This document shows positions 939-57,075 of a stretch of DNA of 64,000 bases, one piece after another. The translations under genes were made by a program, and so were the position numbers. The first letter of the stretch is position 1; the number at the start of each line of letters is the position of its first letter. The stretch is from Siphonodentalium dalli (taxonomy: Eukaryota > Mollusca > Scaphopoda > Gadilida > Siphonodentaliidae): NCBI GenBank assembly GCA_032622095.1, contig CP136065.1, positions 39,807,503 to 39,871,502 on the forward strand, in the 5' to 3' direction. The notes beneath the pieces were generated by a model that worked only from the letters and a program-made list of their open reading frames with translations, searched no databases and was not told the origin of the DNA.

Positions 939-1201
939 TTAACACTTTGATGACGGGAGCTGCGCTAGTGCAGCATTAATGACCATGTGCCAATGCATTC
1001 TCTTATATATCCGAGTCTCACATAGGGAGCGTCGCATATATAAGAGAATGCACTGGCTTACAAGATAAAAGTAAATATTATTTGGCAAATGCATTGTATT
1101 ATATATACGAGGCGCCCAATGGGCGACTCGCATATATAAGAGAATGCATTGGCACAGGGTTTTCACCAAATTTCAGGAAGCTCCAGTCATGAAAGGTTTA
1201 A
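939..1201. mobile_element. Class C cassette MITE (TTAA, CCCTTTCATGACGG-type ends)
   Basis: The element is bounded by TTAA at 939-942 and 1198-1201. Left end: TTAACACTTTGATGACGGGA. Right end: CCAGTCATGAAAGGTTTAA. It carries two near-palindromic cassettes (989-1057 and 1085-1153) in opposite orientation, separated by a spacer of about 27 bp. TTAA target sites with CCCTTT-like termini are typical of piggyBac-type transposons; that assignment is inference from ends only. There is no transposase. Related copies lie at 12412, 16618, 17201, 31657 and 47362. Confidence 0.8.
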
Positions 1202-1334
1202 ACAACAGCCTCCTGTTGTATAGTTATTCATATTCTAAGCATCGATTTATTTGTGAACAAAATATGAGTCGAATCAAGAAATGTCCAGTATATTTGTAAA
1301 TTGTAAGTTCACTTGTAAGGTTTTCAGTTAGATA

Positions 1335-1798
1335 TATGTGACCCGCCATATCAAATCCAGTCGTAAGTCGGGATTTTTTTTATCCTGTGCCAATGCATTC
1401 TCTTATATATGCGAGTCGACCATAGGTCGCCTCGCATATATAAGAGAATGCATTGGCCTAACAATTTTTTACAATTTTAATAATTTTTTCTTGTATTCTT
1501 TAACAATTTTATAATTTCACCCATACAGAGCCCCAGACAAACATGAGCAGACGACGCTCTTCTATATGCTTCTATATATGTGTGGGGATACCTGCATGGT
1601 AATGGATGTTTTTTATTTTATGTCCTAAAAATTGTAGGAAACATTTATTTAAAAAAAATGATAATTTTTGTTTAGGCCAGTGCATTCTCTTATATATGCG
1701 AGGCGACCTATGGTCGACTCGCATATATAAGAGAATGCATTGGCACAGGGTAAAAAAAATCCCGACTTACGACTGGATTTGATATGGCGGGCCACATA
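1335..1798. mobile_element. Class A cassette MITE (TA, TGTGACCCGCC ends), complete
   Basis: Terminal inverted repeats run from TATGTGACCCGCC inward through the motifs atcaaatccagtcgtaag and tcgggatttttt to the first 69-bp cassette (1389-1457). The mirror image runs from the second cassette (1676-1744) out to GGCGGGCCACATA. Outer plus cassette sequence gives inverted repeats of roughly 120 bp each. The spacer of about 220 bp contains catacagagccccagacaaac and ends in A/T-rich DNA. A TA duplication (Tc1/mariner-like) fits all copies but is not proven. Other copies: 11564, 13071, 21571, 56030. Confidence 0.85.
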
Positions 1799-3409
1799 CT
1801 CATGTCAATGTTGTTCTGCTGTGGGAAACCATTCAACTGCATCCATACCAAACAATTTGGTTCCTTAAAGATGACAATCTGATCACTTTCGGATCATGAA
1901 ACTAACATTAACATTAGCTTATCAAATTTATTTATGCCACCAAAACTCAAATGGTCACGATATCAGTTGATCTCCGCCTTGATTTGAACAAATTATGCCG
2001 CGAAATGAAATTGTCGTCAATACCAGCCATTCAAACATTTTGATATATGTTTCTGATATTATTGAAATATTATTATCAGCCCATATCGAATGGCTATCTG
2101 ATTGACACCACTTGTGATCTATGGATTCTGTATTAGCATAAATTTCAAATATCGTTGTCAAATCAAAACCATAAAAGCGTATCATAAGGTTTAATTGAAA
2201 AAGAGGTTATGCTAATACAACTTGTTGACTGTTTCACTGCGAGGAATTAACGGGGTGCTGCGATAAGTGAGCCACGTTTTAATGCATCAGGGATCTCCTT
2301 GTTGCGAGGAGAATGAGGTCTTTGGTGGCAAGCGACGCTTTACCAGCGGCAGAAAAACAAATAATGGAAAGCGTTGAATAATTGTCAACATGATGCGATT
2401 AACTGATAATGATTTGTAATATGCAAAATCATGACTACTTATCTCAGTGTGGCATTATCTAGAAGCACAGTCCGCGAAAGCATTTCGCTTATAAACGACA
2501 TTTAGATGACATTATCTTAACCTCCTGTATTCAATTCTACATTTATTGTCGAAATTCTAGTTAAAGAAACGGTATCATATTACAATAAAATTGCCGTTAA
2601 GTTTCGGGTGAGATATCAAGGTTTAAGGGAGCGTCCAGTTATTAACGTTAATGTCCATATATGCATGATCATGTGGTTAGTTATACATACATACACATCA
2701 AATCCATATATTACCACCATCCAATTTGGGGGCCATGTAGACACAACTCCAATTGCTTCCTAACACATGCATATACTGGGCGTAGGGAACACATTGCTGC
2801 CGGAAACTGTCACTCGATCATTTATATATATGTCGAAATATAATATAATTATATATGCATCCTCATGAATTGTCCCTTCAGTAACGGTGTCCAGAATAAG
2901 CAAACAATATTATTCTAATCGATTTAAAAATCGACATAAAACGTCGGACTTCACAACAAAACAATATCCGTGATAACTGGGTGTCCTTTGTAAATATATT
3001 TGAAGATACATGACTCCAACGACACGGGTTGAGACTAATCGATGCCATATAACCGATGTCAGTTAAGTGTTTTACGTGCCTTCTGCATGGACTCTTCGCG
3101 ACTTGGATATATCACTCCAACGTGAATGGTGTTTATCAATGCGGCCAAGGCATCGATCATTGGCAGAGAAGCATGGGAATTGGAATGACGCCGCTCACAT
3201 TATCATAGACAAATGTTTGCTATCTTTATGGGTTCTTTGGAGCTTTGGAGTCATCAGTGTTTGACCACTGGGTATCAGTAGTCATTTGTCACTGTGCACA
3301 CAAATGGAGTATGGACGAAGGTGGGTTCGGTGTACATGGCTCCGCACGTAGCACGACGCGATCTATGTCAAATAGCAGATGTCTGTAGGGAGAATTCATG
3401 AGAGGTTCA
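1799..3409. other. No gene recognised
   Basis: AT-rich sequence with short frames in several phases and no recognisable motif, splice-bounded exon or repeat apart from small TA-rich runs near 2830-2860. The frames at 1955-2185 and 3067-3264 show no family signature. Confidence 0.5.
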
Positions 3410-3799
3410 GAATACAGCAGGGGCGCCGGAAGAGGGGGGGGCATAGGGGGCAGCTGACCCCCCCTGCCCTTGACCAAGGGGGCGAGTGGGGACAGGACTT
3501 GCCCTTTTTCTGGAGACATAAAATGCTTTTTGTGTGTTTAATCTCGTGTTTTTATAGCAAAATGTGACTTTTTTGGTCCAAATACCACCAATTTCACAAG
3601 GAATATTAATTTTTTGTCAATTTTATCACAAAACGGCCATAAAAACCGACAAATACCATTAAAATAGGGATTTTTGCCACAATGAATTTATGGTTATTTT
3701 CCCGAGTTTGCGGAGAAAATGCCCTTTTTTGCGGAAAAGTGCCCTTTTTGTAGGCTCTGCCCCCTGCCCTTGGATGCTTCCGGCGCCCCTGGAATACAG
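3410..3799. mobile_element. Non-autonomous hAT element with 8-bp target duplication
   Basis: The element itself spans 3418-3791 (374 bp). Its ends are CAGGGGCGCCGGAAG and the exact inverse CTTCCGGCGCCCCTG. Directly outside lie identical 8-bp copies of GAATACAG (3410-3417 and 3792-3799). An 8-bp duplication with CAGGG-type termini is the hallmark of the hAT superfamily. The interior has G- and C-runs near both ends and an A/T-rich middle. There is no transposase frame, so movement would need an enzyme encoded elsewhere. The perfect duplication suggests a fairly recent insertion. Confidence 0.92.
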
Positions 3800-3929
3800 T
3801 ATACGCGTTGCATGTATCTCTTTCTATATATATAGACCAATGGGTGCATGTGCGCATGATTTATTATGTGTAAATTTGTCTTTATAGAAACACCATGTTA
3901 CTATGAAATTGACACATGTAGTTGTCCTT

Positions 3930-4195
3930 AGCTCAAATCAAGCGTGAAATTTTGTCTGGGTTTCAAACCCACGAAGTCATCGAAAAACTCAGAATGCGAT
4001 GACGACGCCAACGACCCAACCACTTCGGCTACGGGCACATACTTGAAAAGTAAACCATTTGTCCGACCTCCGTATTAGTCTGGACATGGGTTCGACGAGT
4101 GACAGAACGAATCTCTCGTTATACGAACAGCACAATGCACTTCCTAAAAAAATCCATATTATAACTATTTGACATGAATAAGCTGGCGTATATAT
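3930..4195 (-). mobile_element. tRNA-derived SINE, partial, family V
   Basis: On the minus strand this stretch matches the tRNA-like head and flanking part of the SINE seen complete at 8519 and 49560. It shows the B-box-like gggtttcaaaccc, the 'caaccacttcggctacg' segment just upstream of it and the 'cacaatgcacttcct' block. It is diverged and shortened at both ends. Confidence 0.6.
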
Positions 4196-4337
4196 ATAGG
4201 AAAATCTCACCATCATGCCTACTCCTTATATACATAACGATCTCTCTAACTCTGGAAAACTTGTGTACCCTTTGAATTGATGATTTCAAACTGATAAGTT
4301 CAAACATGCAGAACATTCCATCCAAAACCTTATGTAA

Positions 4338-4636
4338 CACAGGGACGTGCTAGACGGTTTCCTTGGAATTATTAACTGCACTGTACCCTTGAACCAGCCG
4401 AATCCATTTGCACCCCCTTTTGTTGGAACTTTCCAATTTTGTTGGAACTTTCCAACTGGTGCCTCTAACTTTCCATTTGTTGGAAATTTCGAACCTGACA
4501 TCCCACTCATATTGGATAATGTCCAACTGATGGCAATTTCAGACCAATTTTGACAACAAAAAGTAGAAAAAACTGTTAAAATGTTGATCAAAGTTGGGGT
4601 GTGTGAGACACCCCGATCGCCATGACGGTCCCTGTG
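4338..4636. mobile_element. MITE-like element with CACAGGGAC termini
   Basis: Left end CACAGGGACGTGC and right end GGTCCCTGTG form a short terminal inverted repeat. The interior has several GTTGGAA...TTCCAAC inverted motifs, plus 'gtgtgagacaccccgatcg' near the right end. Part of the same interior recurs just downstream at 4640-4885 (ccagctgatggctacttcag, gtgaaagacacccca). No clear target duplication could be found, so the class is open. Confidence 0.5.
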
Positions 4637-4890
4637 CGTGTTTAGAATGTATCCAGCTGATGGCTACTTCAGACTAGATTTGGCCTATAATCCGACATTT
4701 TATACGATGAATTGTGATAAGAAAATTGACTTATCAGAACAATTTTGGGTTTATTTTCTGTATGCAATTTCCAACTGTTTAGTTGATTCTGGAATGGAAT
4801 TTTAAACAGTTGAAACTCTTTGAGTGAGTTTTGACAAGAGTTGAGTGGTGAAAGACACCCCACAAATGTTGCCATACCACTGGACACGGA
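4637..4890. repeat. Second, diverged copy of the GTTGGAA/CACCCC repeat
   Basis: It shares 'ccagctgatggc.acttcaga' and 'gagtggtgaaagacaccccac' with the preceding element. Order and spacing are kept, but termini are lost. Confidence 0.45.
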
Positions 4891-5784
4891 CGTTATTTCA
4901 GTAGTTATTGAAGTATATCATTCGAGATTACAATACTGATGTCCAATGCGGGGTTACACTATGACTATTTAGAACTCGGCGACGAATTCCATGTAGTTTT
5001 AAAATTCCCTACACTACAGACTCTACGAGAGAGATATATAAATCCTACTTCTATCGAAAGCCGAATATTATTAAACTGAATTAACTATTCAACTCGGGGA
5101 GGGGGAATAGAACACAAAATCTTTCACTGTTCATTAAAATGGTTATGCCATTCTTTATGCTCTCCTAGGCATTCTATAACCGCACATATAATAGCTATAT
5201 ATTGTGTATTATCCTGCACAGAATAGTCACTCAAAATCCTCATGCATCGCACACTATATACTATATGTGTTTTATTATGTTGGGATTAACCACATTCTCT
5301 GTAACATCCAACACGATGGAGTGTTATTAAACTGAATTGAACACTGAATTGTTAAACATACCACACAATATATGATAATAATGAGATCGAAGTGCATGTA
5401 TAAATTCAGATATGTGTGGTTTTTATTGTCAAGGATCGACCTCGATCCCCAAAACAGTCAGCAGGCAAACCTGTTCAAGTAAACAGGAATCAGGTCACGA
5501 CCCCTTTGTCTTGAAATGTGTCAGATGATGTAAAGCAATGTTAAGACTTCACAGTACACACCCTAGTTTCGGAAAAATGCAAAGCGATCTTCAATTATCA
5601 AATTCTATACTTAGCAATAGTACACTGTCGCGATCCGGGAATCAAAATAAGTTGATACATACCGTACATAAAATACGGTACTTACATTCAGGATATGCAT
5701 GCGTTGAAAACAATTATAGACATCGCATCAGCAAGCTCACGAGGATACAATATTCTCAAGTAAGCTGCAGCCTGAGTAAGTGGA
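4891..5784. other. No gene recognised
   Basis: AT-rich sequence. 'ttattaaactgaatt' occurs at about 5067 and 5325, which hints at an old duplication. The small frame 5538-5789 has no recognisable domain. Confidence 0.5.
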
Positions 5785-6211: not shown

Positions 6212-6469
6212 TTAACACTTTACCCAACAGAAGGGCCCTGTCCCAATGCATTCTCTTATATATGCGAGTCGACCATAGGTCGCCTCGCATATATAAGAGA
6301 ATGCATTGGCTTAACACATTAAAAATTATAAAACTATCACAATGTGGTCAAGGAGCCGGTTCCAATGATATCCATATTTGTATGGTTCTATTGAGACAGA
6401 CCGAAAATATTTTAGGCTGTTGAAGCTTTATTTGACCGGTTTTGGCCGTTTTGTTGGGTAAAGGGTTAA
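6212..6469. mobile_element. Class B cassette MITE, internally deleted
   Basis: TTAA at 6212-6215 is followed by CACTTTACCCAACAG. The right end is TGTTGGGTAAAGGGTTAA, finishing at 6469. Only the left cassette (6242-6310) is present. Compared with the full copies at 22429, 23706 and 46804, the segment from the spacer through the second cassette is gone, joining 'attataaaa' to 'ctatcacaatgtgg'. The TTAA target and CCCTTT terminus suggest piggyBac-type mobilisation (inference). Confidence 0.85.
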
Positions 6470-7940: not shown

Positions 7941-7944
7941 GAAC

Positions 7945-8125: not shown

Positions 8126-8129
8126 TTCA

Positions 8130-8515: not shown

Positions 8516-8518
8516 ATG

Positions 8519-11563: not shown

Positions 11564-11950
11564 TATGTGACCCGCCATATCAAATCCAGTCGGAAGTCGG
11601 GATTTTTTTTACCCTGTGCCAATGCATTCTCTTATATATGCGAGTCAACCATAGGTCGCCTCGCATATATATAAGAGAATGCATTGGCCTAACAATTTTT
11701 TATCATTTTTTAAAAATAAATGTTTCCTACAATTTTTAGGACATAAAATAAAAAACATCCATTACCCTGCAGCGAGCCCCACACATATATAGAAGCATAT
11801 AGAAGAGTGTCGTCTGCTCATGTTTGTCTGGGGCTCTGTATGGGTGAAATTATAAAAATGTTAAAGAATACAAGAAAAAATTATTAAAATTGTAAACAAT
11901 TGTTAGGCCAATGCATTCTCATATATAAGAGAATGCATTGGCACAGTGTA
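11564..11950. mobile_element. Class A cassette MITE, right end lost, second cassette collapsed
   Basis: The left terminus TATGTGACCCGCC and first cassette (11618-11688) are intact. The spacer is in the opposite orientation to the 1335 copy. The second cassette (11907-11942) is only 36 bp because its centre is missing, leaving GCCAATGCATTCTC joined to ATATATAAGAGAATGC. After GGCACAGTGTAAC the outer right terminal repeat is absent. Confidence 0.8.
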
Positions 11951-12129
11951 ACAAATTCATGACAGTTTCTATATATGGTGCATTATATTGTGTTCTCGAA
12001 AACCGTCATATCGGTTGGTGTGAAGTTTGACCTGTTCAACGGAGATAGATACTTTAGCAGACAAACTGAAAATTACAGTCACGTACACACGTGCATGTAA
12101 TATGACTAAGTTTCAACCAGCATGTAATT

Positions 12130-12411: not shown

Positions 12412-12675
12412 TTAAGGCCTGGTCTTGGGATATTCTTCCTGAATATTTGCGAAACCCCTGTGCCAATGCATTCACTTATATATGCGAGTCTCCCATATGG
12501 TGCATCGCATATATAAGAGAATGCAATGGCCTAACAATATGTATCTTGATCTTGTAAGTCAGTGCATTCTATTATATATGCGAGGCTCTCAATGGGAAAC
12601 TCGCATATATAAGAATATGAACTGGCATATGTTTTTAAATGCTGCACCAGAGCAGATCCCTTCGTGAAAGGGTTT
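12412..12675. mobile_element. Class C cassette MITE, old copy
   Basis: The left end is decayed (ttaaggcctggtcttggg, then attcttcctgaatatttgcg, matching 17225). Two cassettes follow at 12462-12530 and 12558-12626, spaced by about 27 bp. The right end has 'aaatgctgcaccagagcag' and stops at AAAGGGTTTA. It lies in the reverse sense relative to the 939 copy. Confidence 0.7.
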
Positions 12676-13070: not shown

Positions 13071-13534
13071 TATGTGATCCGCCATATCAAATCCAGTCGT
13101 AAGTCGGGATTTGTTTTACCCTGTGCCAATGCATTCTATTATATATGCGAGTCGACCATAGGTCGCCTCGCATATATAAGAGATTGCATTGTCCTAACAA
13201 TTTTTTATCATTTTTTTTAAATAAATGTTTCCTACAATTTTTAGGACATAAAATAAAAATCATCCATTACCCTGCAGCGAGCCCTACACATATATAGAAG
13301 CATATAGAAGAGTGTCGTCTGCTCATGTTTGTCTGGGGCTCTGTATGGGTGAAATTATAAAATTGTTAAAGAATACAAGAAAAAATTATTATAATTGTAA
13401 ACAATTGTTAGGCCAATGCATTCTCTTATATATGCGAGGCGATCTATGGTCGACTCGCATATATAAGAGAATGCATTGGCACAGGGTAAAAAAAATACCG
13501 ACTTACGACTGGATTTGATATGGCGGGTCACATA
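13071..13534. mobile_element. Class A cassette MITE, complete
   Basis: Ends are TATGTGATCCGCC and GGCGGGTCACATA. Cassettes lie at 13125-13193 and 13413-13480. The spacer has the orientation of the 11564 copy (catgtttgtctggggctctg reading on the plus strand). Length of 464 bp equals the 1335 copy, so the family is of uniform size when uninterrupted. Confidence 0.85.
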
Positions 13535-17200: not shown

Positions 17201-17467
17201 TTAACTCTTCCTTGACTGGAGCTTCCTGAAATTTTGCGAAAACCCTGTGTCAATGCATTCTCTTATATATATGCGAGTCTCCGATATATAGGGAGCCTCG
17301 CACATATAAGAGAATACATTTTCCTAAAAATAATTACCTTGTAAGCCAGTGCATTCTCATATATATGAGATGCTCCTTCTGGGAGACTGGCTCGCATATA
17401 TAAGAGAATTCACCGGCACGTGATCTTTAATGCTGCACCAGCGCAGCTCATGTCATCAACGGGTTAA
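17201..17467. mobile_element. Class C cassette MITE, complete, TTAA on both sides
   Basis: TTAA at 17201-17204, then ctcttccttgactggagctt. Cassettes lie at 17249-17323 and 17345-17417. The right part is 'ctttaatgctgcaccagcgc', ending CAACGGGTTAA at 17467. It is in the reverse sense relative to the 939 copy. The cassette centres here are CTCC...GGGAG rather than CGACC...GGTCG. Confidence 0.85.
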
Positions 17468-21570: not shown

Positions 21571-21999
21571 TATGTGACCCGCCATATCAAATCCAGTCGT
21601 AAGTCGGGATTGTTTTACCCTGTGCCAATGCATTCTCTTATATATGCGAGTCGACCATAGGTCGCCTCGCATATATAAGAGAATGCATTGGCCTAACAAT
21701 TTTTTACAATTTTAATAATTTGTTCTTGTATTCTTTAACAATTTTATAATTTCACCCATACAGAGCCCCAGACAAACATGAGCAGACGACACTCTTCTAG
21801 GTGCTTCTATATATGCGTGGGGCTCCCTGCAGGGTATAATGGATGTTTTTTTATTTTATGTCCTAAAAATTGTAAGAAACATTTATTTAAAAAACATGAT
21901 ACAAAATTGTTAGGCCAATGCATTCTCTTATATATGCGAGGCGACCTATGGTCGACTCGCATATATAAGAGAATGCATTGGCACAGGGTAAAAAAAAAT
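21571..21999. mobile_element. Class A cassette MITE, outer right end lost
   Basis: TATGTGACCCGCC begins the element. Cassettes lie at 21624-21692 and 21914-21982, with the spacer in the orientation of the 1335 copy. After GGCACAGGGTAAAAAAAA the sequence changes to unrelated DNA (tgcggcg), so the last 35 bp or so are missing. Confidence 0.82.
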
Positions 22000-22428: not shown

Positions 22429-22828
22429 TTAACCCTTTACCCAACAAACCGGCCAAAACCGGCCAAATAAAGCTTCAACAGCCTAAAATATCTTCGGTCT
22501 GTCTCAATAGAACCATACACATATGGATATCATTGGAACCGGCTCCTTGACCACATTGTGATAGTTACAGTTATGCCCTGTGCCAATGCATTCTCTTATA
22601 TATGCGAGTCGACCATAGGTCGCCTCGCATATATAAGAGAATGCATTGGCCTAAAAAAAATCTTTTTTTAACACTTTTTACAATTTTTGCTTACATTCTA
22701 TAACAATTTTATAATTTTTAATGTGTTAAGCCAATGCATTCTCTTAGATATGCGAGGCGACCTATGGTCGACTCGCATATATAAGAGAATGCATTGGCAC
22801 AGGGCCCTTCTGTTGGGTAAAGGGTTAA
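22429..22828. mobile_element. Class B cassette MITE, complete
   Basis: TTAACCCTTTACCCAACAAA at the left and TGTTGGGTAAAGGGTTAA at the right, with TTAA on both sides. The left subterminal region has 'ccggccaaaaccggcc' and 'attggaaccggctccttgac'; the cassettes are 22582-22650 and 22730-22798. It is inverted relative to the copies at 23706 and 46804. Confidence 0.9.
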
Positions 22829-23705
22829 TCGTATCGTATCAATTCAACTGACATTTTATTACAGTAAATTCATCACATTTTTTAATTTCGTTTTCTTTTT
22901 AAAGATATCATGCAGTAAAGCCTATGTCATTACAAACGGGGCTGACGAATGTATTCATTTTAAAAGGAAACATTTATTCCGCCAACAGTTATGTCACCGA
23001 ATTGACGTCACTAAACGCTCTTTGTGTGTTATCTATCAAGGCAAGAATAAATAACTCTCTTTATTTATGTGACTGCCAAGCCGGGGGGTAAGTTAAGTAA
23101 AAAAAGTGTAAGAATTGTGAATCGCATCAAAGAGGAGAAAAAAGCGCATCCCGTCGTTTCCTTGACAAGTCTTATTTTCATTATCCAACAATAAAGAGCG
23201 ACGATTGTACTTGTGTGTGGAAAGTTAAAACAGTTACAATATACCACGTGCATACATGTATGGAAATGGGGGGGGGGTGGTTCTTTTCAGAACATATATG
23301 ATGTAGGTATATAACATATATTGACATAAACTTAACTAAAATACAAAAACAAATATATTACTCAGTGCTGCATCGTATATATCTTATAATTTAACCCTAT
23401 ATTTCCTCAATACTCATTGGCGAGCAGTTCGATATTAGGTAGGAAATGTTCAGATATTAAATATATCATTTGTTTGTTGAACTTATACTATCTGAACAGC
23501 TCGGCCACCAACGAGTATGATTCTGTGTGCATTTGTATTACCTTATCGTCTGTCTGCCGTCAGCTTTTATTACCTGAACACCCCCCAAAATTAATAGTGA
23601 ACCATTCCTATACCTTTATAACTGAATGAGAGAATGCATTCAGAATAAAAGCCTAAAATTAAACGCAGTAATAGCTCACACTGTTCTCGTTCATATAATT
23701 CAAAG
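22829..23705. repeat. CGCTCTTT motif copies in otherwise unrecognised DNA
   Basis: AAACGCTCTTTGTGTG (about 23013), AACTCTCTTTATTTATG (about 23052) and CAATAAAGAGCGACG (about 23190) belong to the motif family at 5785 and 18735. The rest, including a G-run at 23270 and two short frames, shows no gene. Confidence 0.5.
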
Positions 23706-24104
23706 TTACCCTTTACCCAACAGAAGGGCCCTGTGCCAATGCATTCTCTTATATATGCGAGTCGACCATAGGTCGCCTCGCATATATAAGAGAATGCATT
23801 GGCTTAACACATTAAAAATTATAAAATTGTTAAAGAATGTAAGAAAAAATGGTAAAAAGTGTTAAAAAAAGATTATTTTTAGGCCAATGCATTCTCTTAT
23901 ATATGCGAGGCGACCTATGGTCGACTCGCATATATAAGAGAATGCATTGGCACAGGGCATAACTGTAACTATCACAATGTGGTCAAGGAGCCGGTTCCAA
24001 TGATATCCATATTTGTATGGTTCTATTGAGACAGACCGAAGATATTTTAAGCTGTTGCAGCTTTATTTGGCCGGTTTTGGCCGGTTTGTTGGGTAAAGGG
24101 TTAA
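23706..24104. mobile_element. Class B cassette MITE, complete
   Basis: The left end TTACCCTTTACCCAACAG lacks one A of TTAA. The right end is TGTTGGGTAAAGGGTTAA, finishing at 24104. Cassettes lie at 23735-23803 and 23883-23951, separated by an 80-bp A/T-rich spacer (attataaaattgttaaagaa). The right subterminal region has 'caatgtggtcaaggagccgg' and 'ccggttttggccgg'. Confidence 0.9.
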
Positions 24105-25625: not shown

Positions 25626-25927
25626 ATCTCAACGGGCGTTGTTAGCCACAGCAGAGATTCGCGGCGTGATCAAGGCAGGTCCAACAAATGGGTATAAGTG
25701 TGACGTCTGGTGATATATACTATGCTATTTCTATAGAGACGAATCAACTTCTGGCGAGCAAATAGCGTAAGTTGGTGTTGCATGTGGACCGATCGCCTAA
25801 GGCGGCTGTCTGATTCTGTTAAACTCGATAAGACCAACTGAATAAAATAGAGATGGCTCGGATCCCAAATGAGATTGGATTGAGTCAAATGTACTACAAC
25901 CAGCACCGTAAAATCCACCTTTACGTT

Positions 25928-28900
25928 GCCACCACTAATACTACCACTACCAAGCCACCACAACCAACAGCACCACCACCACAACCAATACCATCACGAA
26001 CTAGCACCACCAACAACATACACCGAAACCACCATCACAATCATCACCACCACCAACACCATAACGACCATAACCACAAACACTATCACTACCTATCACA
26101 CCACCACCACAACCACTACTAATACTACCACTACCAAGCCACTGCAACCAACAGCACCACAATCAATACTATCACGAACTAGCACCACAAACAACATACA
26201 CCGAAACCTCCATCACAATCATCAACACCAGCAACAACACCATAACGACCATAACCTCAAACACTACCACACCACCACCACAACCACTACTAATACTACC
26301 ACTATTAATGCCACCAATACCAAGGCAACCAACAGCAACAACACAAACACCTATAATATCACAATCACAACTACTATTATTACAACCACCACCAGCACCA
26401 CCACTAACAACACACAGCGAAGCCACCATCATCATCACCACCAACACGAGCATAACCACAGCCACCACCACCACCACCATCACCACAGCCACCACTATCA
26501 CCACCACCACCACCACCACCACCACCAATAACACTAATACTACTAACACCAATACTAATAATGACACTGAATACCACAGCAACAACAAAAATACCGATAC
26601 CGCCATCATAATCATCACCGCCTCCAACATCAACAACATACAGCGAATCACCCTCATCATCACCACCAACACGAGTATAACCAACACCACCACCACCACC
26701 AACGCCGCCACCACTATCACCACCACCACCACCACTACCACCGCCATCACCACCAATACCATTAATACTACTAACACCAATACTAATAATGACACTGAAT
26801 AACAAAGCAACAATACAAACACCGATACCGCCATCATAATCATCACCGCCTCCAACAACATACAGCGAAGTCACCTTCATTACCACCACAAACACGAGCG
26901 CAACCAATACCGCCACCACCACAACCAATAATAGTACCACTAACAATGGCATCGCAACCAACATCACCACCACAACGACAACTACAGCCATCAATACCAC
27001 CATTCACTAGCAGTCTAGCACCACCAACAGCATACACGAACTCCCCATCATAATGATCACCACCACCAATACCATCACGACCATAACCACAGCCACTATC
27101 ACTAGCTACCACACCACACCACCACTACCGCTACTAATATTACCAATATTAATGCCACCAGTACCATGACAACAAACAGCTACTACACAAACACCTATAC
27201 CACCACAATCACAACTACTATTATTACAACCACCACCAGCACCACCACTAACAACACACAGCGAAGTCACCATCATCACCAACACCAACACCAGCACAAC
27301 CATAACCACCACCACCACCATTACCACCACCACCACTATCACCACTAGCACCATCACCCACTAATACTACCACTAATAATGACACTGAATACCACAGCAA
27401 CAACAAAACACCGATACCGCCATCATAATCATCACCGCCTCCAACACCAACAACATAGAGCGAAGTCACCATCATCACCATCACCAACACGAGCAAAACT
27501 ACAACCACCACTACCACCGCCACCACTATCACCACCACCACCACCACTACCACCGCCATCACCACCAATACCATTAATACTACTAACACCAATAATAATA
27601 ATGACACTGAATAACACAGCAACAACACAAACACCGATACCGCCATCATAATCATCACCGCCTCCAACACCAACAACATACAGCGAAGTCACCATCATCA
27701 TCACCACCAACACCAACAACATACAGCGAAGTCACCATCATCACCATCACCAACACCAACAACATACAGCGAAGTCACCATCATCATCACCACCAACACG
27801 AGTATAACCACCATCACCACCACCACCGCCACCACTATCATCATCACCACCACCACCACCACCACCACCACTACCACCGCCATCACAACCAATACCACCA
27901 ATACTACTAACACCAATACTAATAATGACACTGAATACCACGGCAACAACACAAACACCGATACCGCCATCATAATCATCACCGCCTCCAACAACATACA
28001 GCGAAGTCACCTTCATTACCATCACCAACACCAACAACATACAGCGAAGTCACCATCATCACCACCATCAACACGAGTATAACCACCACCATCACCACCA
28101 CCACCACTATCACCACCACCACCACCACCATTACCACTAATACTACAAACACCAATACTAATAATGACACTGAATACCACGGCAACAACACAAACACCGA
28201 TACCGCCATCATAATCATCACCGCCTCCAACACCAACAACATACAGCGAATCACCCTCATCATCACCACCAACACGAGTATAACCACCACCACCACCAAC
28301 ACCAACACCGCCACCACTATCACCACCACCACCACCACTACCACCGCCATCACCACCAATACCATTAATACGACTAACACCAATACTAATAATGACACTG
28401 AATACCACGGCAACAACACAAACACCGATACCGCCATCATAATCATCACCGCCTCCAACAACATACAGCGAAGTCACCATCATCACCATCACCAACACCA
28501 ACAACATACAGCGAAGTCACCATCATCACCACCATCAACACGAGTATAACCACCACCACCACCACCACCACCACTATCACCACCACCACAACCACTACCA
28601 CCGCCATCACGTAGCCACTGGGGCTGTGGCAATTCATTCTATGTATATTTGACTGATCTGCCCATTCAACATACCACCAATACCACTAATACTACTAACA
28701 CCAATACTAATAATGACACTGAATACCACGGCAACAACACAAACACCGATAACGCCATCATAATCATCACCGCCTCCAACACCATACAGCGAAGTCACCT
28801 TCATTACCGCCTCCAACACCAACAACATACAGCGAAGTCACCATTATCACCATCACCAACACCAACAACATACAGCGAAGTCACCATCATCACCATCACC

Positions 28901-29105
28901 AACACCAACAACACACAGCGAAGTCACCATCATCATCACCATCAACACGAGCACAACCACAACCACCACCACCTCCATCACCACCGCCGCCACAGCCACC
29001 ACCACCACCATCACCACCGCCACCACCACCTAAATCTCCACCACCACTATTACTACCACTAACAATGGCATCGCAACCAACAGCATCACCACAACCACAA
29101 CTAGA
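25928..29105. repeat. C/A-rich satellite with higher-order units
   Basis: The plus strand is almost entirely C, A and some T in CAC, CAT, AAC and ACT triplets. Larger units recur: 'accaatactaataatgacac' followed by tgaatacca and 'accgataccgccatcataat', then 'aacatacagcgaagtcacc' and 'aacacgagtataacca', near 26545, 26780, 27380, 27585, 27905, 28150, 28380 and 28700. Spacing is about 200-320 bp, sometimes with 'aacaacatacagcgaagtca' itself repeated. Open frames of up to 229 codons on both strands come from the absence of stop triplets and encode Thr/His or Val/Gly runs. A unique insert of about 55 bp sits at 28612-28668. Confidence 0.95.
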
Positions 29106-30115
29106 ATGCACTCAGAGAGATGCCAGCGTGCGCAAAAATGTAATAAACAATAATTTAAAAAATAATTTCACTGTATTTTACTTAATTTATTTAATTTAAT
29201 TTAATGTTAGCAAAAAAAGACAATTACCATTTCTCATTTCATCACAGATAAAAGGCAAATTACTATATTAATCATTTAAGTAATTAAAACCAATTCCATG
29301 TTGCCGAAAGGATGAGACTTTAATATCGATTACATTTTTTTCAGCGGTATATTTTCATTTTCATTTTCCGATAGTCAAAGGTGACCAAAGGAGCAATTAT
29401 AAGAAATAATTAATACTATTTGTGTAAATATTGATAGCAGCCAATATGCAACAATAAATATCAATAATTAATCAATAATTAATCAATAACGATCATTTTA
29501 TGTAATAATAAACTCTTCAAACGGTGTTTGTGTCAACAAATGCGTTTTGTTTTGTGTTACGTCATTCGTCGTATTTGACCCGGAACTCGGCTGAAGGTTA
29601 GGCTATTCAGCCTATTGCGTCGAATTACGAAATCGCGTTTTGAATGTCTCTCTTTTTATCGTGCGGGAAAAGAGAGACATTCTAAACGCACGAACCAAAA
29701 ATGATAAAACTTCCCAATTATAAGTAAAAATACCCAAATGAAGGAGTCTATGTAGGTCCCGAAGGAGTCTATAGACTCTTTGATGCGAGTTCTGATGGAG
29801 AAAATGTAGGTCGATCTATTTATGTCATAACTCTGACGTATTTTGACCTGGGAGAAAAAATGGAAATCGAGGCTCACTACGAGCATGCCAGTTTTAAATA
29901 TAGAAACAGGGAATCCGGACAAATGGCGATATCGGCGACAAACAAATAATCGAAAACAACACATAAAATAAACATAGCAAAAACGCGACACAGTAAAAAT
30001 GTCAGAACGCCACGAGGTTTTACGTCGTTTTTGGTGACGTCATGGAGTGTGACACCAAGCTACCAAGCTACGAATCTGTCTGATCGCCATACTGTTGCGC
30101 GAGCGCACGTAACTA
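29106..30115. other. Non-satellite insert of 1 kb, with hairpin at 29641-29683
   Basis: The composition shifts from C/A-rich to A/T-rich and back. A hairpin is formed by TGAATGTCTCTCTTTT and AAAAGAGAGACATTC. The minus-strand frame 29656-29991 (111 codons) ends inside it and shows no family. Termini are not clear inverted repeats, so I cannot say whether this is a mobile insertion. Confidence 0.5.
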
Positions 30116-30795
30116 CCACCATCAATACCATCATGCACTAGCACTACCAACAACATACACCGAAACCACCATCACTATGATCACCAACACCATCAGGACC
30201 ACAACCAGAACCACTATTACTACCACTAACAATGCCACCAATATCACCGAAACCAACTGCAACAACACAAACACATATACCGCCACAATCATAACCACTA
30301 TTATCACCAACACCAGCACAACCACTACCAGCACTATCACTACATACCACCACCACTAACACCACACCAAAACTACCACTAACAATGACACAAATAATAC
30401 CGCAGTCAACAGCAACAACACAACGACATATACCACCGCAATCACAACTACTATTCTACATCAACACCATCACTAGCATCACCAACAACATCCACCGAAA
30501 CCACCATCATATTCATCACCACCACCAACACCAACACAACCACCACCACCACCCCACAACCACCACTAATATTACCACTAACAATGCCACCATACCACCG
30601 CAACCAACAGCAACAACACAACAACTGATGCCACCACAATCACAACTACTATTATCATCACCAATATCATCACTAGCACCACCAACAAAATCCACAGAAA
30701 CCACCATCACAATCATCACCACCATCAACAGCAGCACAACCACAACCACCACATCCCCCTCCACCACCACCACCACCACCACCACCACCACAAAC
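30116..30795. repeat. C/A-rich satellite, second block
   Basis: Same triplet style as 25928-29105 (accaccatcaataccatca, caccaccaacaacatacacc), with units containing 'ccaaccaacagcaacaacac' and 'accaccaacaaaatccacag'. The right end finishes in a pure (CAC)n run before aaacaatttaaat. Confidence 0.92.
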
Positions 30796-31656
30796 AATTT
30801 AAATGGGGACTGACTTAAGCTTGAATATTTTTATGGCAAAGTGTAGTATTTGCTTACTGCCTGGATCTGTGTTGTGTCGTGGCACGATTTCTCAGTGAAA
30901 CTAACACTCCGCGACATTCCTGCTATCATTTTAACTGACCACGTCGCGCTGTAAGCGATATAAAACTCGAATGATAACTCGTACGAGTTCACCAAACGAC
31001 AAACCCATGCAGATGTTACCACGTATATATATATATCACAGTGAGCAAACACGAAAGTTAGTGTTCAGCGTAATTTAGTGCCAACTACTGAATAAATTCG
31101 TTTGTTATTTCGCTACATCGCACTCTTATACTCTATTACACAAGCGAAGACACGGCCTTTCTTCACCGAAGTACTCAAGATGTTCAAGTAGGATCTAATT
31201 GAGGTATATGTCACAATTAAGTCACATACGTCACGGCGAGATGTCTCTCCGAATGTCAATTAAACAGTAAACTAGCATATAGACTGAAGATGGGTACATT
31301 CCAGGCTCCCTTTACAATGGGTTTGATGCATCTGCCGAAATGGTTCAGAGACCAAATTGGTGTAATGTTTATTATGCATTGCTAGTGTTCGTGTTCTCTG
31401 ACTTGTCCTCGAAAGAAAAAGATCCATATAGTGCATGTCAACTGCAGACTATTGCTCAGACAATTGGTCCCATTTCGGTGCTATGTTTCGTGGTTGTCCG
31501 ACATTTGGATCATCTCCATATCGAATTATCATCGAGAGACACATCGTTAACAATGCTGGTGTTTGAATTATTAATCCCAGTGCATGTCTGAATCGGGCAA
31601 ATATATGCAAGGTTGGTATGACCATTTGATTTCTGAGAGGATTGCAATACTCAGTC
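30796..31656. other. No gene recognised
   Basis: Short frames only, including 31340-31591 (83 codons), without domain features. Confidence 0.4.
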
Positions 31657-31760
31657 TTAACCTTTCCACAACGGCAGCTCCTGAAATTTTGCGAAATCCA
31701 TATGCCAATGTATTCTCTTATATATGCGACTCTCCCATATATGGAACAGATACCACGTGC
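31657..31760. mobile_element. Class C cassette MITE, left fragment
   Basis: TTAACCTTTCCACAACGGCA, then 'gcagctcctgaaattttgcg' as at 17218, and one cassette arm (31704-31745) that stops at the centre (tctcccatatatgg). Everything to the right is lost. Confidence 0.7.
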
Positions 31761-46803: not shown

Positions 46804-47203
46804 TTAACCCTTTACCCAACAGAAGGGCCCTGTGCCAATGCATTCTCTTATATATACGAGTCGACCATAGGTCGCCTCGCATATATAAGAGAATGCATTG
46901 GCTTAACACATTAAAAATTATAAAATTGTTAAAGAATGTAAGAAAAAATGGTAAAATGTGTTAAAAAAAGATTTTTTTTAGGCCAATGCATTCTCTTATA
47001 TATGGGAGGCGACCTATGGTCGACTCGCATATATAAGAGAATGCATTGGCACAGGGCATAACTGTAACCATCACAATGTTGTCAATGAGCCGGTTCCAAT
47101 GATATCCATATTTGTATGGTTCTATTGAGACAGACCCAAGATAATTTAGGCTGTTGAAGCTTTATTTGGCCGGTTTTGGCCGGTTTGTTGGGTAAAGGGT
47201 TAA
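46804..47203. mobile_element. Class B cassette MITE, complete
   Basis: TTAACCCTTTACCCAACAG to TGTTGGGTAAAGGGTTAA with TTAA on both sides and a total of 400 bp. Cassettes lie at 46834-46902 and 46982-47050. Same orientation as the 23706 copy, from which it differs by few bases. Confidence 0.92.
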
Positions 47204-47361: not shown

Positions 47362-47871
47362 TTAACCCTTTCATGACGGAAGCTGCGCTGGTGCGACATT
47401 AAAGACTCTGTGCCAATGCATTTTCTTATATATGTATACATAAGAGAATGTTTTGGCCTAACAATCTTTTTTATCATTGTTTCTTACATCCTTTAACAAA
47501 TTTTATCATTTTTTAAAAATAATTTTGTATTACATTCTTTAATAATGTATATGATTTTTTTTTATAATTTTTGTCTTATATTCTTTAACAATTTGAATTA
47601 TTTTTCTTTTCTTCTAAAAAATGTTATCCTGTTTTATCAGTTTTTCTTACATTCTTTATCAATATTTTTATAATTTTTTCTTACATTCTTCAACAATTTT
47701 TATCATTTATTTCATTATTTCTTACACCCTTTTACAATTCTTTTAAATTTTTTCTTACATTTTTTAACGATTATAAAAAGTAATATCAAATTTGTTAGGC
47801 CAATGCATTCTCTTATATGCGAGGCGACCTATGGTCGACTCGATTATGTAAGATAATGCATTGGCACAGGG
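47362..47871. mobile_element. Chimeric cassette MITE: class C left end, A/B-like interior
   Basis: TTAACCCTTTCATGACGGAA and 'agctgcgctggtgcgacatt' are class C. The first cassette (47412-47457) has a shortened centre. The spacer of about 340 bp is made of degenerate repeats of 'ttcttacattctttaacaat', unlike the 27-bp class C spacer. The second cassette (47799-47864) has the A/B centre (GCGACCTATGGTCGA) and ends GGCACAGGGTC. No class C right terminus follows. Confidence 0.7.
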
Positions 47872-50628: not shown

Positions 50629-50834
50629 TTAACCCTTTCAGTGCCAAGTCCGATTTTTGTATCAACCCATATTTCCTTGAGCATTTTTCAAATTTATTGA
50701 TTATAATAATGTGATACATTGATGGAAAGAGCTCTTTCCATCAATGTATCACATTATTATAATCAATAAATTTGAAAAATGATCAAGGTAATATGGGTTG
50801 ATACAAAAATCGGACTTGGCACTAAAAGGGTTAA
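50629..50834. mobile_element. 206-bp near-perfect palindromic MITE, TTAA on both sides
   Basis: TTAACCCTTTCAGTGCCAAG at the left and CTTGGCACTAAAAGGGTTAA at the right. The two 103-bp halves are reverse complements with only about three mismatches, centred exactly at AAAGAG|CTCTTT (50731/50732). The CCCTTT terminus and TTAA site again fit piggyBac-type mobilisation. It has no loop and no coding capacity. Confidence 0.95.
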
Positions 50835-51765: not shown

Positions 51766-51983
51766 TAGCTATCACTTAACAGGTTCCTTGGTCGATCACG
51801 CGGTTTGATCACGTGTCGAAGCTACGCATAATTGTCGTGAGTGAAACTAGTCGCCGCATTTGTCTTCAATTCACGACACTTTATAGAGAGTAAATGTACT
51901 GTTGGTATATGATGAATACATTATATAATGAATATAATTTATCAGCCCCGTTTTCAAGTTTGTATGGAATTATATCTGTTCAG

Positions 51984-52376
51984 CATAATTTACTCTGTGA
52001 TTTACTCTGTGATTTACTCTGTGATTTACTCTGTGAGTTACTCTGTGGTTTACTCTGTGATTTACTCTGTGAGTTACTCTGTGAGTTACTCTGTGATTTA
52101 CTCTGTGATTTACTCTGTGATTTCCTCTGTGATTTACTCTGTGAGTTACTCTGTGATTTCCTCTGTGGTTTACTCTGTGATTTACTCTGTGATTTCCTCT
52201 GTGATTTACTCTGTGGTTTACTCTGTGATTTACTCTGTGATTTCCTCTGTGATTTACTCTGTGATTTCCTCTGTGATTTACTCTGTGATTTACTCTGTGA
52301 TTTACTCTGTGAGTTACTCTGTGAGTTACTCTGTGATTTACTCTGTGATTTACTCTGTGAGTTACTCTGTGAGTTA
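51984..52376. repeat. 12-bp minisatellite, about 32 units
   Basis: Unit TTACTCTGTGAT, with four main variants: GATTTA, GAGTTA, GGTTTA and GATTTC at the junction. Because 12 is a multiple of three, two plus-strand frames stay open (repeats of LLCD/LLCE and of IYSV/SYSV). These frames are products of the repeat. Confidence 0.95.
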
Positions 52377-52453
52377 CATGCTCTTTCTAGATACGTGAAT
52401 TGAAGTTAAAAAGTCCGTAGAATTATGAATCTGAATCAAATTCCACCGTGTAT

Positions 52454-52548
52454 TAGTCCTTAAATCTTCATGCCTTACATCCATCATATGGACATTTAGT
52501 CCTTAAATCTTCATGCCTTACATCCATCATATGGACATTTAGTCCTTT
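52454..52548. repeat. 43-bp tandem repeat, two units and a partial third
   Basis: 'tagtccttaaatcttcatgc' starts at 52454 and 52497, and TAGTCCTT again at 52540. The two full units are identical. Confidence 0.92.
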
Positions 52549-52623
52549 CGCAAGAGATTGTTTAGTAAAATAACGAAACCAAGTCCTGTCAATTTACTGA
52601 TTAGTCCTATACATTCAACCAAC

Positions 52624-52700
52624 GTCCGTAATTTTACAGAATAATGAGCTGGGCAATATTTTCCCAGCACTTTATTCCGTAAAAATACAGAAATCCTAGG
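52624..52700. repeat. Imperfect hairpin with GCTGGG/CCCAGC centre
   Basis: 'tccgtaattttacagaataa' pairs with 'ttattccgtaaaaatacaga', with GCTGGG and CCCAGC enclosing a 9-bp loop. Probably a small foldback repeat; 'ctaacagtg' lies just downstream. Confidence 0.65.
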
Positions 52701-52715
52701 CCTTTCTAACAGTGT

Positions 52716-54464
52716 TTAGACATTCAATTACGCTATGTGGCTCCGGTATAACACATCAATTCGTGTTGGATATCGAGATAATAAGATTTATAGGATCCAC
52801 ACAAAACGTCGCTACTCTCGAAGGTAATCATGACCTTATGGCACATTCCTTGTGGGCCACACATTATATACACACGGATGGCGCTTGTGATTCTTCCTTA
52901 CACAATATATGTTTGTCGTATAACTTTCAATTATTCATTGTGATATTTCATTCTGATAAATTGTGGTTTTCCATATCGAACATTCATTTGTGCATCTATC
53001 TGTCTAATATATAGACACATCTGTCTAATGTAGGCAGAAAAACATAGGTAGTGTCTATGAGACCACTGAGTTCTATTCCACCGATACGACACAATATATA
53101 TATTACCACTTAAATAATGCTGACAGAGTAGAGACGACATTCTTCGAAAGCACACGTTCTGGTATATCTGCCAGTCTAGAATGGTTTTTGACTCCCTTAT
53201 GTTCAACTATTTATAATTGTATCGAAATATCAAATTTAAATTGATATATAGGATTCAGGCCTCACAGTAAAGTGATGTGGAATATTCTACTGAGGTAATG
53301 GCTGCGGACACGCGTACCACAGTAGCGATGGCATAGTAGGCGTGACAATTTATTATGGTGGAGATTGGTGACAATTGATCGTAATAAGTATGTGCCATAG
53401 CTAGACATGTTGCCCACTGAGTTTCCGCACAATTAGTCGACTGGACCAATTAACCCATTGCGTTTCACCAAGGTTGATCTCTACTCATTACGTTTTGCTG
53501 CATTGTATTCTCTACGATATAATATATGCGATATATTTATTTATCTCACGTGACTATCTAAGCCTTATCCACGCTTGTGATTGGTTGCTTGCCATTCACT
53601 GTTATCGATAGTGTTCAACGACACGATAGTGGCCTCCTAATTTTAGCACACCCACTATCGCTTGGAAAATCCAGAAATATATTTATAGCATGCCCACTAT
53701 TCCGGGGAGGTAATTTGACAGTCATCATCTCCGCCTCGCTGCAAAAGTTCAACATTTGTTGTCCAAAATGTCTTTGTAATCGACAACTAGAGCACAATAA
53801 ATGATCATAAGCAAATTCTTTATGTTATTTGTGATGTTTTACCCATGTTTGATGTGGCGATTTATCATGTTCATTTCTGCGCTGATCACAATATCGCTTC
53901 GATATTTTTGTCTATTTTCTTAGTTCGCGCTACGAAATTTTGTAAACGAATCTTTTGAACTGACATCATTGTTTAACAACAACATCAACAACGATGTTCG
54001 CTTTCCATTGCAAGTCAAAATGGCAACAATTATTCCTGAGGAAGAAAATTTAAGATTTGCCAAATTAGAAGCCGGGGAAAGCAAAACAAATAAAAGAAGA
54101 AAAAAAATTTGCACTGAAAATTTTGAATTAATTCTGCAATGAAAAGGGAATACAGGATTGTGAATTGTTTGACATTATTGGTCCTGGGACAGAATGAAGA
54201 ACGTTCGATGAAATATAATAAATATTGCACGGCTTGTCGGTGACTGTGCCAAAAATAGTGGTCCTCTGTGGAGCCTCCGGCTCGGGGACTATTCCTCCCC
54301 TCGTGCAATATTTATAAAATAGACCATCGGAAACCAACTGAAAAAATCGTTTTTCCGGATACCCGAATACGGATACAATTACATCCTGCTAATTGCAGGC
54401 ATAATGCAACCCAATTAAATATTTTGTCATCTCCACACTTATCCCGGTTGCTATAAAGTGCACC
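52716..54464. other. No gene recognised
   Basis: Several overlapping frames of 60-100 codons on both strands, none recognisable. At 53615-53705 'acgatagtgg' and 'cccactatcg' are inverted. 'taaagtgatgtggaatat' at 53270 echoes 35100 and 58800. Confidence 0.4.
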
Positions 54465-55250
54465 ACATCGTTCAGTGATAACAGTAGGCCCGATCTTACC
54501 CCGGGCAAAACTCGAAACGACCAGATACTGTAGCAATATGATACTTAGATTCCAGATCAGCTTAATCTGTTTCAGCAGTGAAGATTTTTTATGAAAGCCG
54601 CTGATATAACAGTATAACACCACCGATATCGAAAGCCGTTTTATGGCAAGGAAACTGTGTCTATCCGAACCCAATTGTGTGGAGTTGCCACCTCCTACCG
54701 ACAGTGGTTTGACACTATGCCTAACCATGTTGACCGGTCCGTGAGTATATCAAAATTATCATCTAAACGCACTCAGTACCCGACAGCAAGTTATAATACC
54801 ATACACTGGAGCTGCTATATGTACGATTCCCTTTGGTTATATGTGACCATTGCAAGTAACATTTTACGGTAAAACAATGAGGTGCCCAACTAAGAAAGGG
54901 GAAATATACTTGTTACGCTTCGGAATATATATTTCGCCAACATACACCCATTTGATAACAGAAACGAACATGTTACAGAAATAAAATATTTCTTCACAAC
55001 GAGAATAGTTTATTAAATCACAATTATCGGTAACTCAAAACTAATAGATCAAAACCAGAATGATTGTTCCAAAATCAATAGATTTTGATCAAAATCAATT
55101 AGGAACCAATATTTCTAAGAGTGTATGTGCATTGGGTAAAAGCCAACTCAAGTTGAAAGGAACGAGAAAGTGTGTCGAAACAGTAGAATTACACGACACC
55201 GTTGATGCGGATCGTATCAGCGCGCCGTATGACGAATCAATGCTAACTTA
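54465..55250 (+). repeat. Family F repeat fragments in otherwise unrecognised DNA
   Basis: 'gataacagtag', 'agattccagatcagcttaat' and 'ctgtttcagcagtga' (54490-54580), and 'aaggaacgagaaagtgtgtc' (55158), correspond to parts of 50935-51120. The intervening DNA shows no gene. Confidence 0.4.
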
Positions 55251-55924
55251 ATCATGTATACGGATTCCGTTTCGATAGCTAAATTATCGACACAAAATTA
55301 TGTTTTTTTTTGCGTTACGCTCATTTGTTCCATATAACGGAGTACGTGGTTCATTGACTTCCATATCGTTGATCATATGCATGCATATCGACATTTTTGC
55401 ACATATGTTGATTTTATTCACAGCGCTATTCTCGTACCACATATAATACTCGAGTATATTGACCGTATACAAGTGGAGTTCGACCAGGCTATTAGATTGC
55501 GAGTATTGGTTAACTCTCACAAAGGGTTCGAATGAAACCGGATCGGCCTCTGGTCCGACCCATGCATGGCCAGATAAACACCATCGGGAGGCCGCTAAAA
55601 GCCCCGATGTTCCGTCCTCTTATATCTGTTATTTCCCGATGATTCGATGAAAGGATATGCATCGATCGGCTTTCTGTAAACTCTGTCCCGTCCGGGAAAA
55701 GCATTCGAATAATGTACTTATAAGATTCGAGAGTACGACATGATTCCCGGAGATATGGCTTCATCTGTCCCCAGTGTCTGGGCACCGACACCACAAATGG
55801 CCGAACTCTTGGAATGTTCCTGTAAACAGACACGCTTGAACATCAAAAGTAGCTACTCGTATATGCTTGGCTTCGGAAGAGAAAGTTCAAAACATTCTCT
55901 TCCGAAACCAAGTACAAAACAATC
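55251..55924. other. No gene recognised
   Basis: Frames on both strands overlap (55510-55833 minus, 55459-55650 plus). A short inverted pair, 'ttcggaagagaaagttcaaaa' (55874-55894) and 'cattctcttccgaa', lies at 55874-55908. Confidence 0.4.
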
Positions 55925-56025
55925 GTGCTTCGAACCCAGACATGGGTGAAACTCTGGGCTGATCGGAATAAAGGGACGTCTCAATATACATACAGAAGGA
56001 CTGAACACAATATACCGAATCAGTG
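55925..56025 (+). mobile_element. SINE fragment, family V body
   Basis: GTGCTTCGAACCCAGACATG (B-box side), 'gctgatcggaataaaggga' and 'cgtctcaatatacat' match the region just after the B box of the full copies. It ends where the class A MITE begins. Confidence 0.5.
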
Positions 56026-56029
56026 CCTA

Positions 56030-57075
56030 TATGTGACCCGCCATATCAAATCCAGTCAGAAGTCGGGATTTTTATACCCTGTGCCAATGCATTCTCTTAT
56101 ATATGCGAGTCGACCATAGGTCGCCTCGCATATATAAGAGAATGCATTGGCTTAAAGGGGTACTGTACGCCATTTTCATTAAATTTCCGGTGACAACAAC
56201 GATCTAATATCGATAATATATAGAAACATAAGTAATTTGAGTCGAAGATGTATTCTGTAAACGCTCAGGTTAATAGGCTATCTCAAAATTTAATAATTTA
56301 AAAGTTAATAATTTGATATAAATTGAATTTATGACTGGAGCCATAAAATGGCGTCAATTAAATTACGAATTTGCGTAATCAAATAAAGTAAATGAGGGAT
56401 ACTGGCTTGTTAAACCGATCGCACACACGATCGCTTAAAATATTATGATGATACGGGGAGAACACTCAAGCCACTCACTGACTAGCGACGATACAATAAC
56501 TTAAATGATTATATGGGACTAGTATGCCTATAATATAACTTTTATTTGATTCATTTGGTTGAAAACTGTACAAAAATTACTCGACGACAATTTGTATTTT
56601 TGCATTCCGGTAAATTTGTCATCCGTAACACTACTTCGTACTCAACAGACTTTCAAATAATGAAAAAAGTGTTACCTTATTCTCAGACTCGGAGACTATA
56701 GAAACCAACAACAACATTTGGCGTACAGTACCCCTTTAACAATGTTTTATCAGTGTTTTTTAAATAAATGTTTCTTACAATTTTTAGGACATAAAATAAA
56801 AAAACATCCATTACCCTGCAGGGAGCCCCACACATATATAGAAGCACATAGAAGAGTGTCGTCTGCTCATGTTTGTCTGGGGCTCTGTATGGGTGAAATT
56901 ATAAAATTGTTAAAGAATACAAGAACAAATTATTAAAATTGTAAAACATTGTTAGGCCAATGCATTCTCTTATATATGCGAGGCGACCTATGGTCGACTC
57001 GCATATATAAGAAAATGCATTGGCACAAGTCATGGTAAAAAAATCCCGACTGGATTTGATATGGCGGGTCACATA
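56030..57075. mobile_element. Class A cassette MITE interrupted by another element
   Basis: Ends TATGTGACCCGCC and GGCGGGTCACATA, cassettes at 56083-56151 and 56956-57024, and spacer in the 11564 orientation. Without the insert at 56152-56739 the length is about 460 bp, the same as the uninterrupted copies at 1335 and 13071. The insert lies directly after the first cassette. Confidence 0.9.
56152..56739. mobile_element. Nested TTAA element, AGGGGTACTGTACGCC ends
   Basis: TTAA at 56152-56155 and 56736-56739 flank exact 16-bp inverted termini AGGGGTACTGTACGCC and GGCGTACAGTACCCCT. The host sequence at the site (gcTTAAcaat) corresponds to gcctaacaat in other class A copies. The interior is A/T-rich with no coding frame of note. 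The TTAA duplication suggests piggyBac-type insertion, though the terminus is not CCC. Confidence 0.9.

Follow-up and report, generated by a model that had tools for sequence, protein, structure and literature searches.

A hairpin core shared by miniature inverted-repeat transposable elements with unlike ends in Siphonodentalium dalli suggests exchange of transposon ends

A 64,000-nucleotide stretch of the Siphonodentalium dalli genome (contig CP136065.1; C5:39807503-39871502, hereafter the window) contains a 69-bp palindromic cassette that recurs in several classes of miniature inverted-repeat transposable elements (MITEs). The usual element consists of an outer end, CCCTGT, the 69-bp cassette, an AT-rich spacer, an inverted cassette, ACAGGG and an outer end; CCCTGT to ACAGGG is referred to here as the core. 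The window was analysed together with the genome (2.23 Gb, 9 contigs) and a random sample of 20 stretches of 10 kb (200 kb). The results suggest that the core is the hairpin-rich core of an old MITE family, class C, re-fitted with other ends by breakage and recombination, a reading to which we assign a probability of roughly 0.55. On this reading the core is not a free-standing transposon today. The original prediction, made from the window's sequence alone, had offered two explanations, a mobile cassette pair or elements that swap termini around it. End swapping fits better, because class C holds older, compensated cassettes, class D has a single cassette, its relative D0 is core-less, one element is a hybrid, and class A elements break at the core edge.

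Searches for the arm GCCAATGCATTCTC with up to two mismatches returned 46 sites in the window, compared with a mean of 0.44 and a maximum of 3 in 100 shuffles. These sites form 19 full-size pairs, two shortened pairs (11907/11929 and 47412/47444) and four single arms, the remains of decayed or broken cassettes; the earlier figure of about 27 cassette copies was roughly right. In the genome, the 14-bp arm has 337,586 exact matches (168,925 + 168,661), and the same 14-mer read backwards has none. The cassette is a near-perfect palindrome with 27-bp arms, a T.C mismatch, a 5-bp inner stem (CGACC/GGTCG) and an ATA loop. Its folding as DNA reached -35.4 kcal/mol compared with a shuffle mean of -6.6. 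The 69-bp cassette and 27-bp arms of the original prediction were confirmed. As to an RNA or tRNA origin, a scan of the window returned no Rfam match at the gathering threshold and no tRNA.

Four carrier classes were distinguished by their ends. Class A (460 bp) has TGTGACCCGCCATATCAAATCCAGTCGTAAGTCGGGATTTTTTTTA at both ends and showed a 2-bp target-site duplication (TSD) in 11 elements. This duplication was TA in eight, two of them extendable to TATA, and AA/TT in three. Tc1/mariner-type MITEs have a strict TA target duplication, compared with TA in 8/11 and AA/TT in 3/11 here, and no transposase was linked to class A. Class B (392 bp) starts with TTAA and CCCTTTACCCAACA, and class C with TTAA and CCCTTTCATGAC. 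Both are asymmetric, each with two different subterminal ends; in class B these are a short end, GAAGGG-CCCTGT, and a long end, CAGTTATG-CCCTGT. All three classes had been predicted and all are present in the window. That list lacked a fourth, class D (TTAA and CCCTTTGAGTGCCAGG), which was found elsewhere in the genome and has only one cassette. TTAA stood at both sides in 12/15 rows for class B (two of the three remaining were spurious pairings), 10/11 for class D (one being D0) and 8/11 for class C. After TTAA, classes B, C and D open with CCCTTT. TTAA duplications and CC[C/T]T ends characterize piggyBac-type MITEs in the available text of Wang et al. (2010; PMC2872659); both features are seen in B, C and D, and class A, with its 2-bp duplication, does not fit. 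The predicted crossing of transposon types by the core was therefore supported. Exact end strings in the genome number 18,296 for class A, 91,612 for class B and 14,969 for class D.

The outer edge of the core, CCCTGTGCC/GGCACAGGG (CCCTGT|GCC), was abrupt in every class. Such a sharp shared boundary had been anticipated, and a gradual continuum of termini, named in advance as the contrary outcome, was not seen. In the random sample, 33 of 34 outward core edges carried class A-D ends, and the leftover edge resembles a decayed C end. The window gave 20/24; the four unassigned edges are one chance match, two A copies with a lost end and the right side of 47366-47871. Viewed from the ends, the core edge was present in every one of the 65 A ends whose sequence reached far enough (60 strictly, 5 as small variants) and in 26/30 B ends. 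Cassettes were lost at L076 and window position 6465, and the edge was absent in L025 and L028:2210. The prediction had limited the sharing to the cassettes. Its abrupt outer edge stood. An AT-rich spacer motif around TTCTTACATTCTTTAACAATTTTATAA also recurs in A, B and D and in the newer copies of class C, and A and D have both the spacer motif and a TACCCTGT edge in common.

Cassette divergence differed greatly among the classes. Mean values for window and random copies were 1.3% for A (12), 1.4% for Bs (9), 3.0% for Bl (9), 12.5% for Cl (7) and 9.4% for Cr (9). These figures were used because many loci in the full set of 115 copies had been picked via exact strings, which biases the all-copy values of A (1.8%), Bs (1.9%), Bl (2.2%) and D (1.1%) low; the all-copy values of C were 11.1% for Cl and 9.6% for Cr. 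By this measure A, B and D are young (1-3%) and C is old (9-13%). Consensus sequences of A, B and D were identical at 69/69 positions, and the right-hand cassette of old C (Cr) differed at six positions that make up three compensated pairs (5/65, 30/40, 31/39). The loop stem was CTCCC/GGGAG in old C and CGACC/GGTCG in newer C, A, B and D. An intermediate stem, CGCCC/GGGCG, was complete in a single C cassette (window 1085-1153), partial in L111 and absent from all 83 A, B and D cassettes. Newer C copies combine C ends with the newer loop and with long AT-rich spacers bearing the repeat of A, B and D. The simplest order of forms is old C, newer C and then A, B and D. Because C copies hold the older, compensated versions, C is the most likely birthplace of the cassette, which would have been given other ends later. 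In old copies, one-sided changes outnumbered compensated ones (Cl, 77 vs 16 cells; Cr, 50 vs 30).

Class D has one cassette, and the pair therefore need not move as a unit. At least one arm was present at 15 of the 17 D loci read; the cassette was cleanly lost in L073, and L077 was broken earlier. D and D0 are alike up to CATAT, after which ACCCTGTGCC follows in D and TTCCTTGA in D0. The D0 junction had 9,932 exact core-less matches in the genome, one of them in the window, and the cassette was absent from 10/10 D0 copies read. D0 is a natural core-less reference and a relative of class D. The spacer and TACCCTGT edge of D are nearest to those of A, suggesting that D probably took half a core from A. 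Empty sites had been proposed as a check for each MITE class. The D outer end exists core-less as D0; for A and B, short gapped patterns found no core-less junction in the genome, patterns that demand exact flanking strings and that decayed or differently joined core-less copies escape. The same pattern form recovered 37,764 filled B junctions as a positive control.

One element, L083, is a hybrid: its left end is that of D, its right end that of A and its inner part A-like, and its flanks lack a matching duplication. Breakpoints of class A copies were placed on a full-length A copy. The count omits L151 (odd arrangement), L092 and L096 (picked for their edge) and L047 and L048 (internal losses), and duplicates were merged (L172 and L183 with L044; L184 with L162; L156 and L158 with L152). 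Nine of 27 merged events fell in the 11 bp just beyond the core, where a uniform distribution would place 0.68 (Poisson P ~5e-8); seven of the 27 were unmapped and are possibly insertions instead of breaks, and L174 is possibly a mutated end. One break lay in the far cassette (4.3 expected) and five in the remaining far end. The distribution points to a fragile core edge in class A. Where A copies were broken in the A-run, TG followed directly after the run in 4/4 (L159, L162, L175 and window 21997); L168 differs.

The favoured course of events would be as follows. The core most likely arose inside the old TTAA-type (piggyBac-like) family C, where the cassette would have undergone its compensated changes and the two cassettes would have grown alike. 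The newer core would then have received other transposon ends at least three times, yielding A (2-bp TSD, mostly TA), B (TTAA) and D (TTAA), the last with an outer end as in D0 and a half core nearest to A's. Each new set of ends could place the same core under a different transposase and lead to amplification. We infer both these separate transposases and the manner of joining, in which the DNA would break where the 69-bp hairpin has its foot, and another element would act as the template for repair or as the joining partner. The genome offers more than 100,000 core copies as possible templates, and homology between cores would also permit direct exchange.

Several observations weigh against this account. 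Hybrids between D and A look rare: L083 was the sole hybrid among 17 sites read of the 23 that carry the hybrid diagnostic string, which also marks an ordinary D subfamily and so does not count hybrids. The class A hot spot overlaps an A/T run that is inseparable from the hairpin foot, and this run may itself be fragile or hard to assemble. By itself the loop series CTCCC-CGCCC-CGACC is undirected, so the proposed direction, from C to A, B and D, would rest on the age of C. The genome has 128 places matching piggyBac transposase (PF13843), a number of them with long stop-free open frames; none of 20 upstream flanks of these matches held an exact B, C or D end, and no transposase was tied to any class (flanks L055 and L059 begin with TTAACCCTTTATCTGC and L049 with TTAACACGTTGAGTGCCGG). 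Finally, and as the main difficulty, A and B each have an exact boundary on either side of the core; repair of random breaks would not predict this, and a discrete mobile unit would. The possible solo core at L104 comes second. These exact edges, nested insertions and the locus L104 are the points in favour of a mobile cassette pair.

Such a pair could have spread by nested transposition, the CCCTGT...ACAGGG core being, or having been, a transposon that inserted into existing elements of classes A to D and was multiplied by them. We consider this unlikely, but layered insertion is common here and keeps the explanation alive. A class A element lies within a C cassette with a TA duplication (L047), adjoining B and C copies have a single TTAA in common (L028, L111), and the class A centre resembles a separate G-like repeat that adjoins A copies in L039, L152, L156 and L158. 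TA is also found on either side of the core in A. L104 (G000:C3:22824500-22825373) carries a core without A-D ends, preceded by TTAA on its left side and followed by TCAA, in a tandem array of 499-bp period with two TTAACCCTGTGCCAATGC sites, and is a possible solo core. A similar site pair was seen near C3:23121430. Against these stand the absence of a clear solo core among the 34 random-sequence edges, the absence of a common duplication adjoining the core in the A, B and C consensuses, the single edge of D and the absence of core-less A and B junctions. Solo units with their own duplications, suggested in the original prediction as a check, thus came down to the one candidate L104, and the mobile pair was weakened. 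TTAA followed by CCCTGTGCCAATGC (TTAACCCTGTGCCAATGC) also occurred at just 344 exact genome sites. As a solo piggyBac-like core it was rejected, with L104 left as a candidate, after 21 sites in 20 stretches proved to be mostly A, B and C variants or end-lost copies; in L093 neither side read had a recognised end.

A different explanation is that the core was kept since its double hairpin aids the amplification of any MITE, through transposase access, as a repair template or by escape from silencing, the mode of pick-up being incidental. The high copy numbers of several carrier classes, the core edge, strict or slightly altered, in each of the 65 A ends read, and hairpin pairing that survived three compensated changes are consistent with this idea, which the available text of Wang et al. 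also proposes for coral elements (PMC2872659). However, core-less D0 is common too, correction within a palindrome could yield compensated change without selection, and the many one-sided changes in old copies are as in neutral decay after insertion; we hold the explanation to be improbable. Ordinary divergence from a single ancestral MITE, with ends that drifted around a middle that stayed alike, might account for CCCTTT after TTAA in B, C and D. It is contradicted by the abrupt identical edge in all classes and by the occurrence of the D outer end on an unrelated interior in D0, it sits poorly with the different TSD of A, and we give it very little credence.

The shared core has a close, TTAA-only precedent in the CMITEs of the coral Acropora, as described in the available text of Wang et al. 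(2010; PMC2872659). These elements of about 100 bp have a 75-bp interior, an estimated 1,600 or so copies and TTAA throughout. They comprise several MITE families with unlike ends (most CCCTTT...), in which the interior is more conserved across families than the ends; tandem arrays are reported, and in that text the origin of the interior is left unexplained. The likeness described lies in a conserved interior across TTAA families with different ends (PMC2872659). Unlike CMITEs as described there, the core in S. dalli is a double palindrome with far more copies, is also found on a class with a 2-bp TSD, and has older and intermediate forms still visible. What that account lacks, and what is new here, is a carrier with a 2-bp TSD, an interior built of hairpins, a succession of core forms that can still be seen, a core-less relative (D0) and the scale. 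L083 in turn resembles chimeric copies of Galileo in Drosophila mojavensis, for which the available text (PMC3573991) reports ends from different subfamilies and non-matching target flanks, invokes ectopic recombination and proposes end exchange as founding new subfamilies. Galileo chimeras as described there join subfamilies of one transposon, whereas the ends here come from families with different TSDs (PMC3573991). Searches of the open-licence PMC literature turned up no paper describing these sequences or a core common to TTAA and TA types.

The classification of MITEs goes by their ends and tacitly assumes one history for ends and interior. Here the interior would be older than the ends and historically distinct from them, and it crosses from TTAA-type to TA-type in families of tens of thousands of copies. 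For repeat annotation, clustering by interior would merge, and clustering by ends would split, the same material. The elements thereby offer a natural experiment on the birth of new MITE families, a question that Wang et al., in the available text, left unanswered for corals (PMC2872659). A further suggestion, which we find possible but would not count on, is that the hairpin core acts as an adaptor: its foot would be a hot spot for breaking and rejoining, and the interior could be re-fitted with TTAA- and TA-type ends and so outlive the loss of each transposase. If so, the MITE 'families' of this genome would be a single long-lived passenger that has worn one set of ends after another.

Elements identified in the window were as follows.
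939..1201 (943-1197, TTAA both sides): class C element; cassettes 989-1057 and 1085-1153, the latter with the intermediate stem
1335..1798 (1337-1796, 460 bp, TSD TA): class A element; cassettes 1389-1457 and 1676-1744
6212..6469 (6216-6465, TTAA both sides): class B element; single cassette 6242-6310, the other lost
11566..11955: class A element, right outer end gone in the A-run just beyond the core; cassettes 11618-11688 and 11907-11942 (shortened)
12462..12626: degraded copy of class C; cassettes 12462-12530 and 12558-12626
13071..13534 (13073-13532, TSD TA): class A element; cassettes 13125-13193 and 13412-13480
17201..17467 (17205-17463, TTAA both sides): old class C element; cassettes at 17249 and 17345
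21573..21997: class A element that lost its right outer end in the A-run; cassettes 21624-21692 and 21914-21982
22429..22828 (22433-22824): class B element; cassettes 22582-22650 and 22730-22798
23705..24104 (23709-24100; flanks GTTA left, TTAA right): class B element, opposite orientation; cassettes 23735-23803 and 23883-23951
31704..31745: broken copy of class C, consisting of the left end and a cassette that is cut short
46804..47203 (46808-47199): class B element; cassettes 46834-46902 and 46982-47050
47362..47871 (element 47366-47871): newer 'long' form of class C, with a left end of that class, a new-style core and a long AT-rich spacer; no recognised right end past ACAGGG
50629..50834: core-less D0 element; TTAA-flanked, near-perfect 206-bp palindrome whose outer ~44 bp match class D up to CATAT
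56030..57075 (56032-57073): class A element; cassettes 56083-56151 and 56956-57024, extra DNA between them

The spacer string of 47366-47871 was tried as the mark of a separate class and rejected: at 12 sites read with flanks (of 48), the visible ends were mostly class C, and the element was therefore taken as a form of C. Among the follow-up stretches for this string, C right ends were present in L122 and L123 and absent from L121.

Elsewhere in the genome, a gene lies within two elements that resemble class A and have half cassettes (L029 and L030; G000:C1:4495900-4497800, 4549480-4551400). A 177-aa open frame in L030 matches Bcl-2 (PF00452, E 1.7e-13), and both elements are enclosed by a further outer inverted repeat, CAGGATTTAGTCATAAA.

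The window also contains an array at 51988-52377 in which the 12-bp unit ATTTACTCTGTG recurs some 32 times, and long CCA/ACC-type repeats at 25884-30813 with higher units of 43 bp and 228-467 bp. An open frame at 40029-40835 matches reverse transcriptase (RVT_1, slightly below the curated cut-off) and is probably a retroelement remnant.

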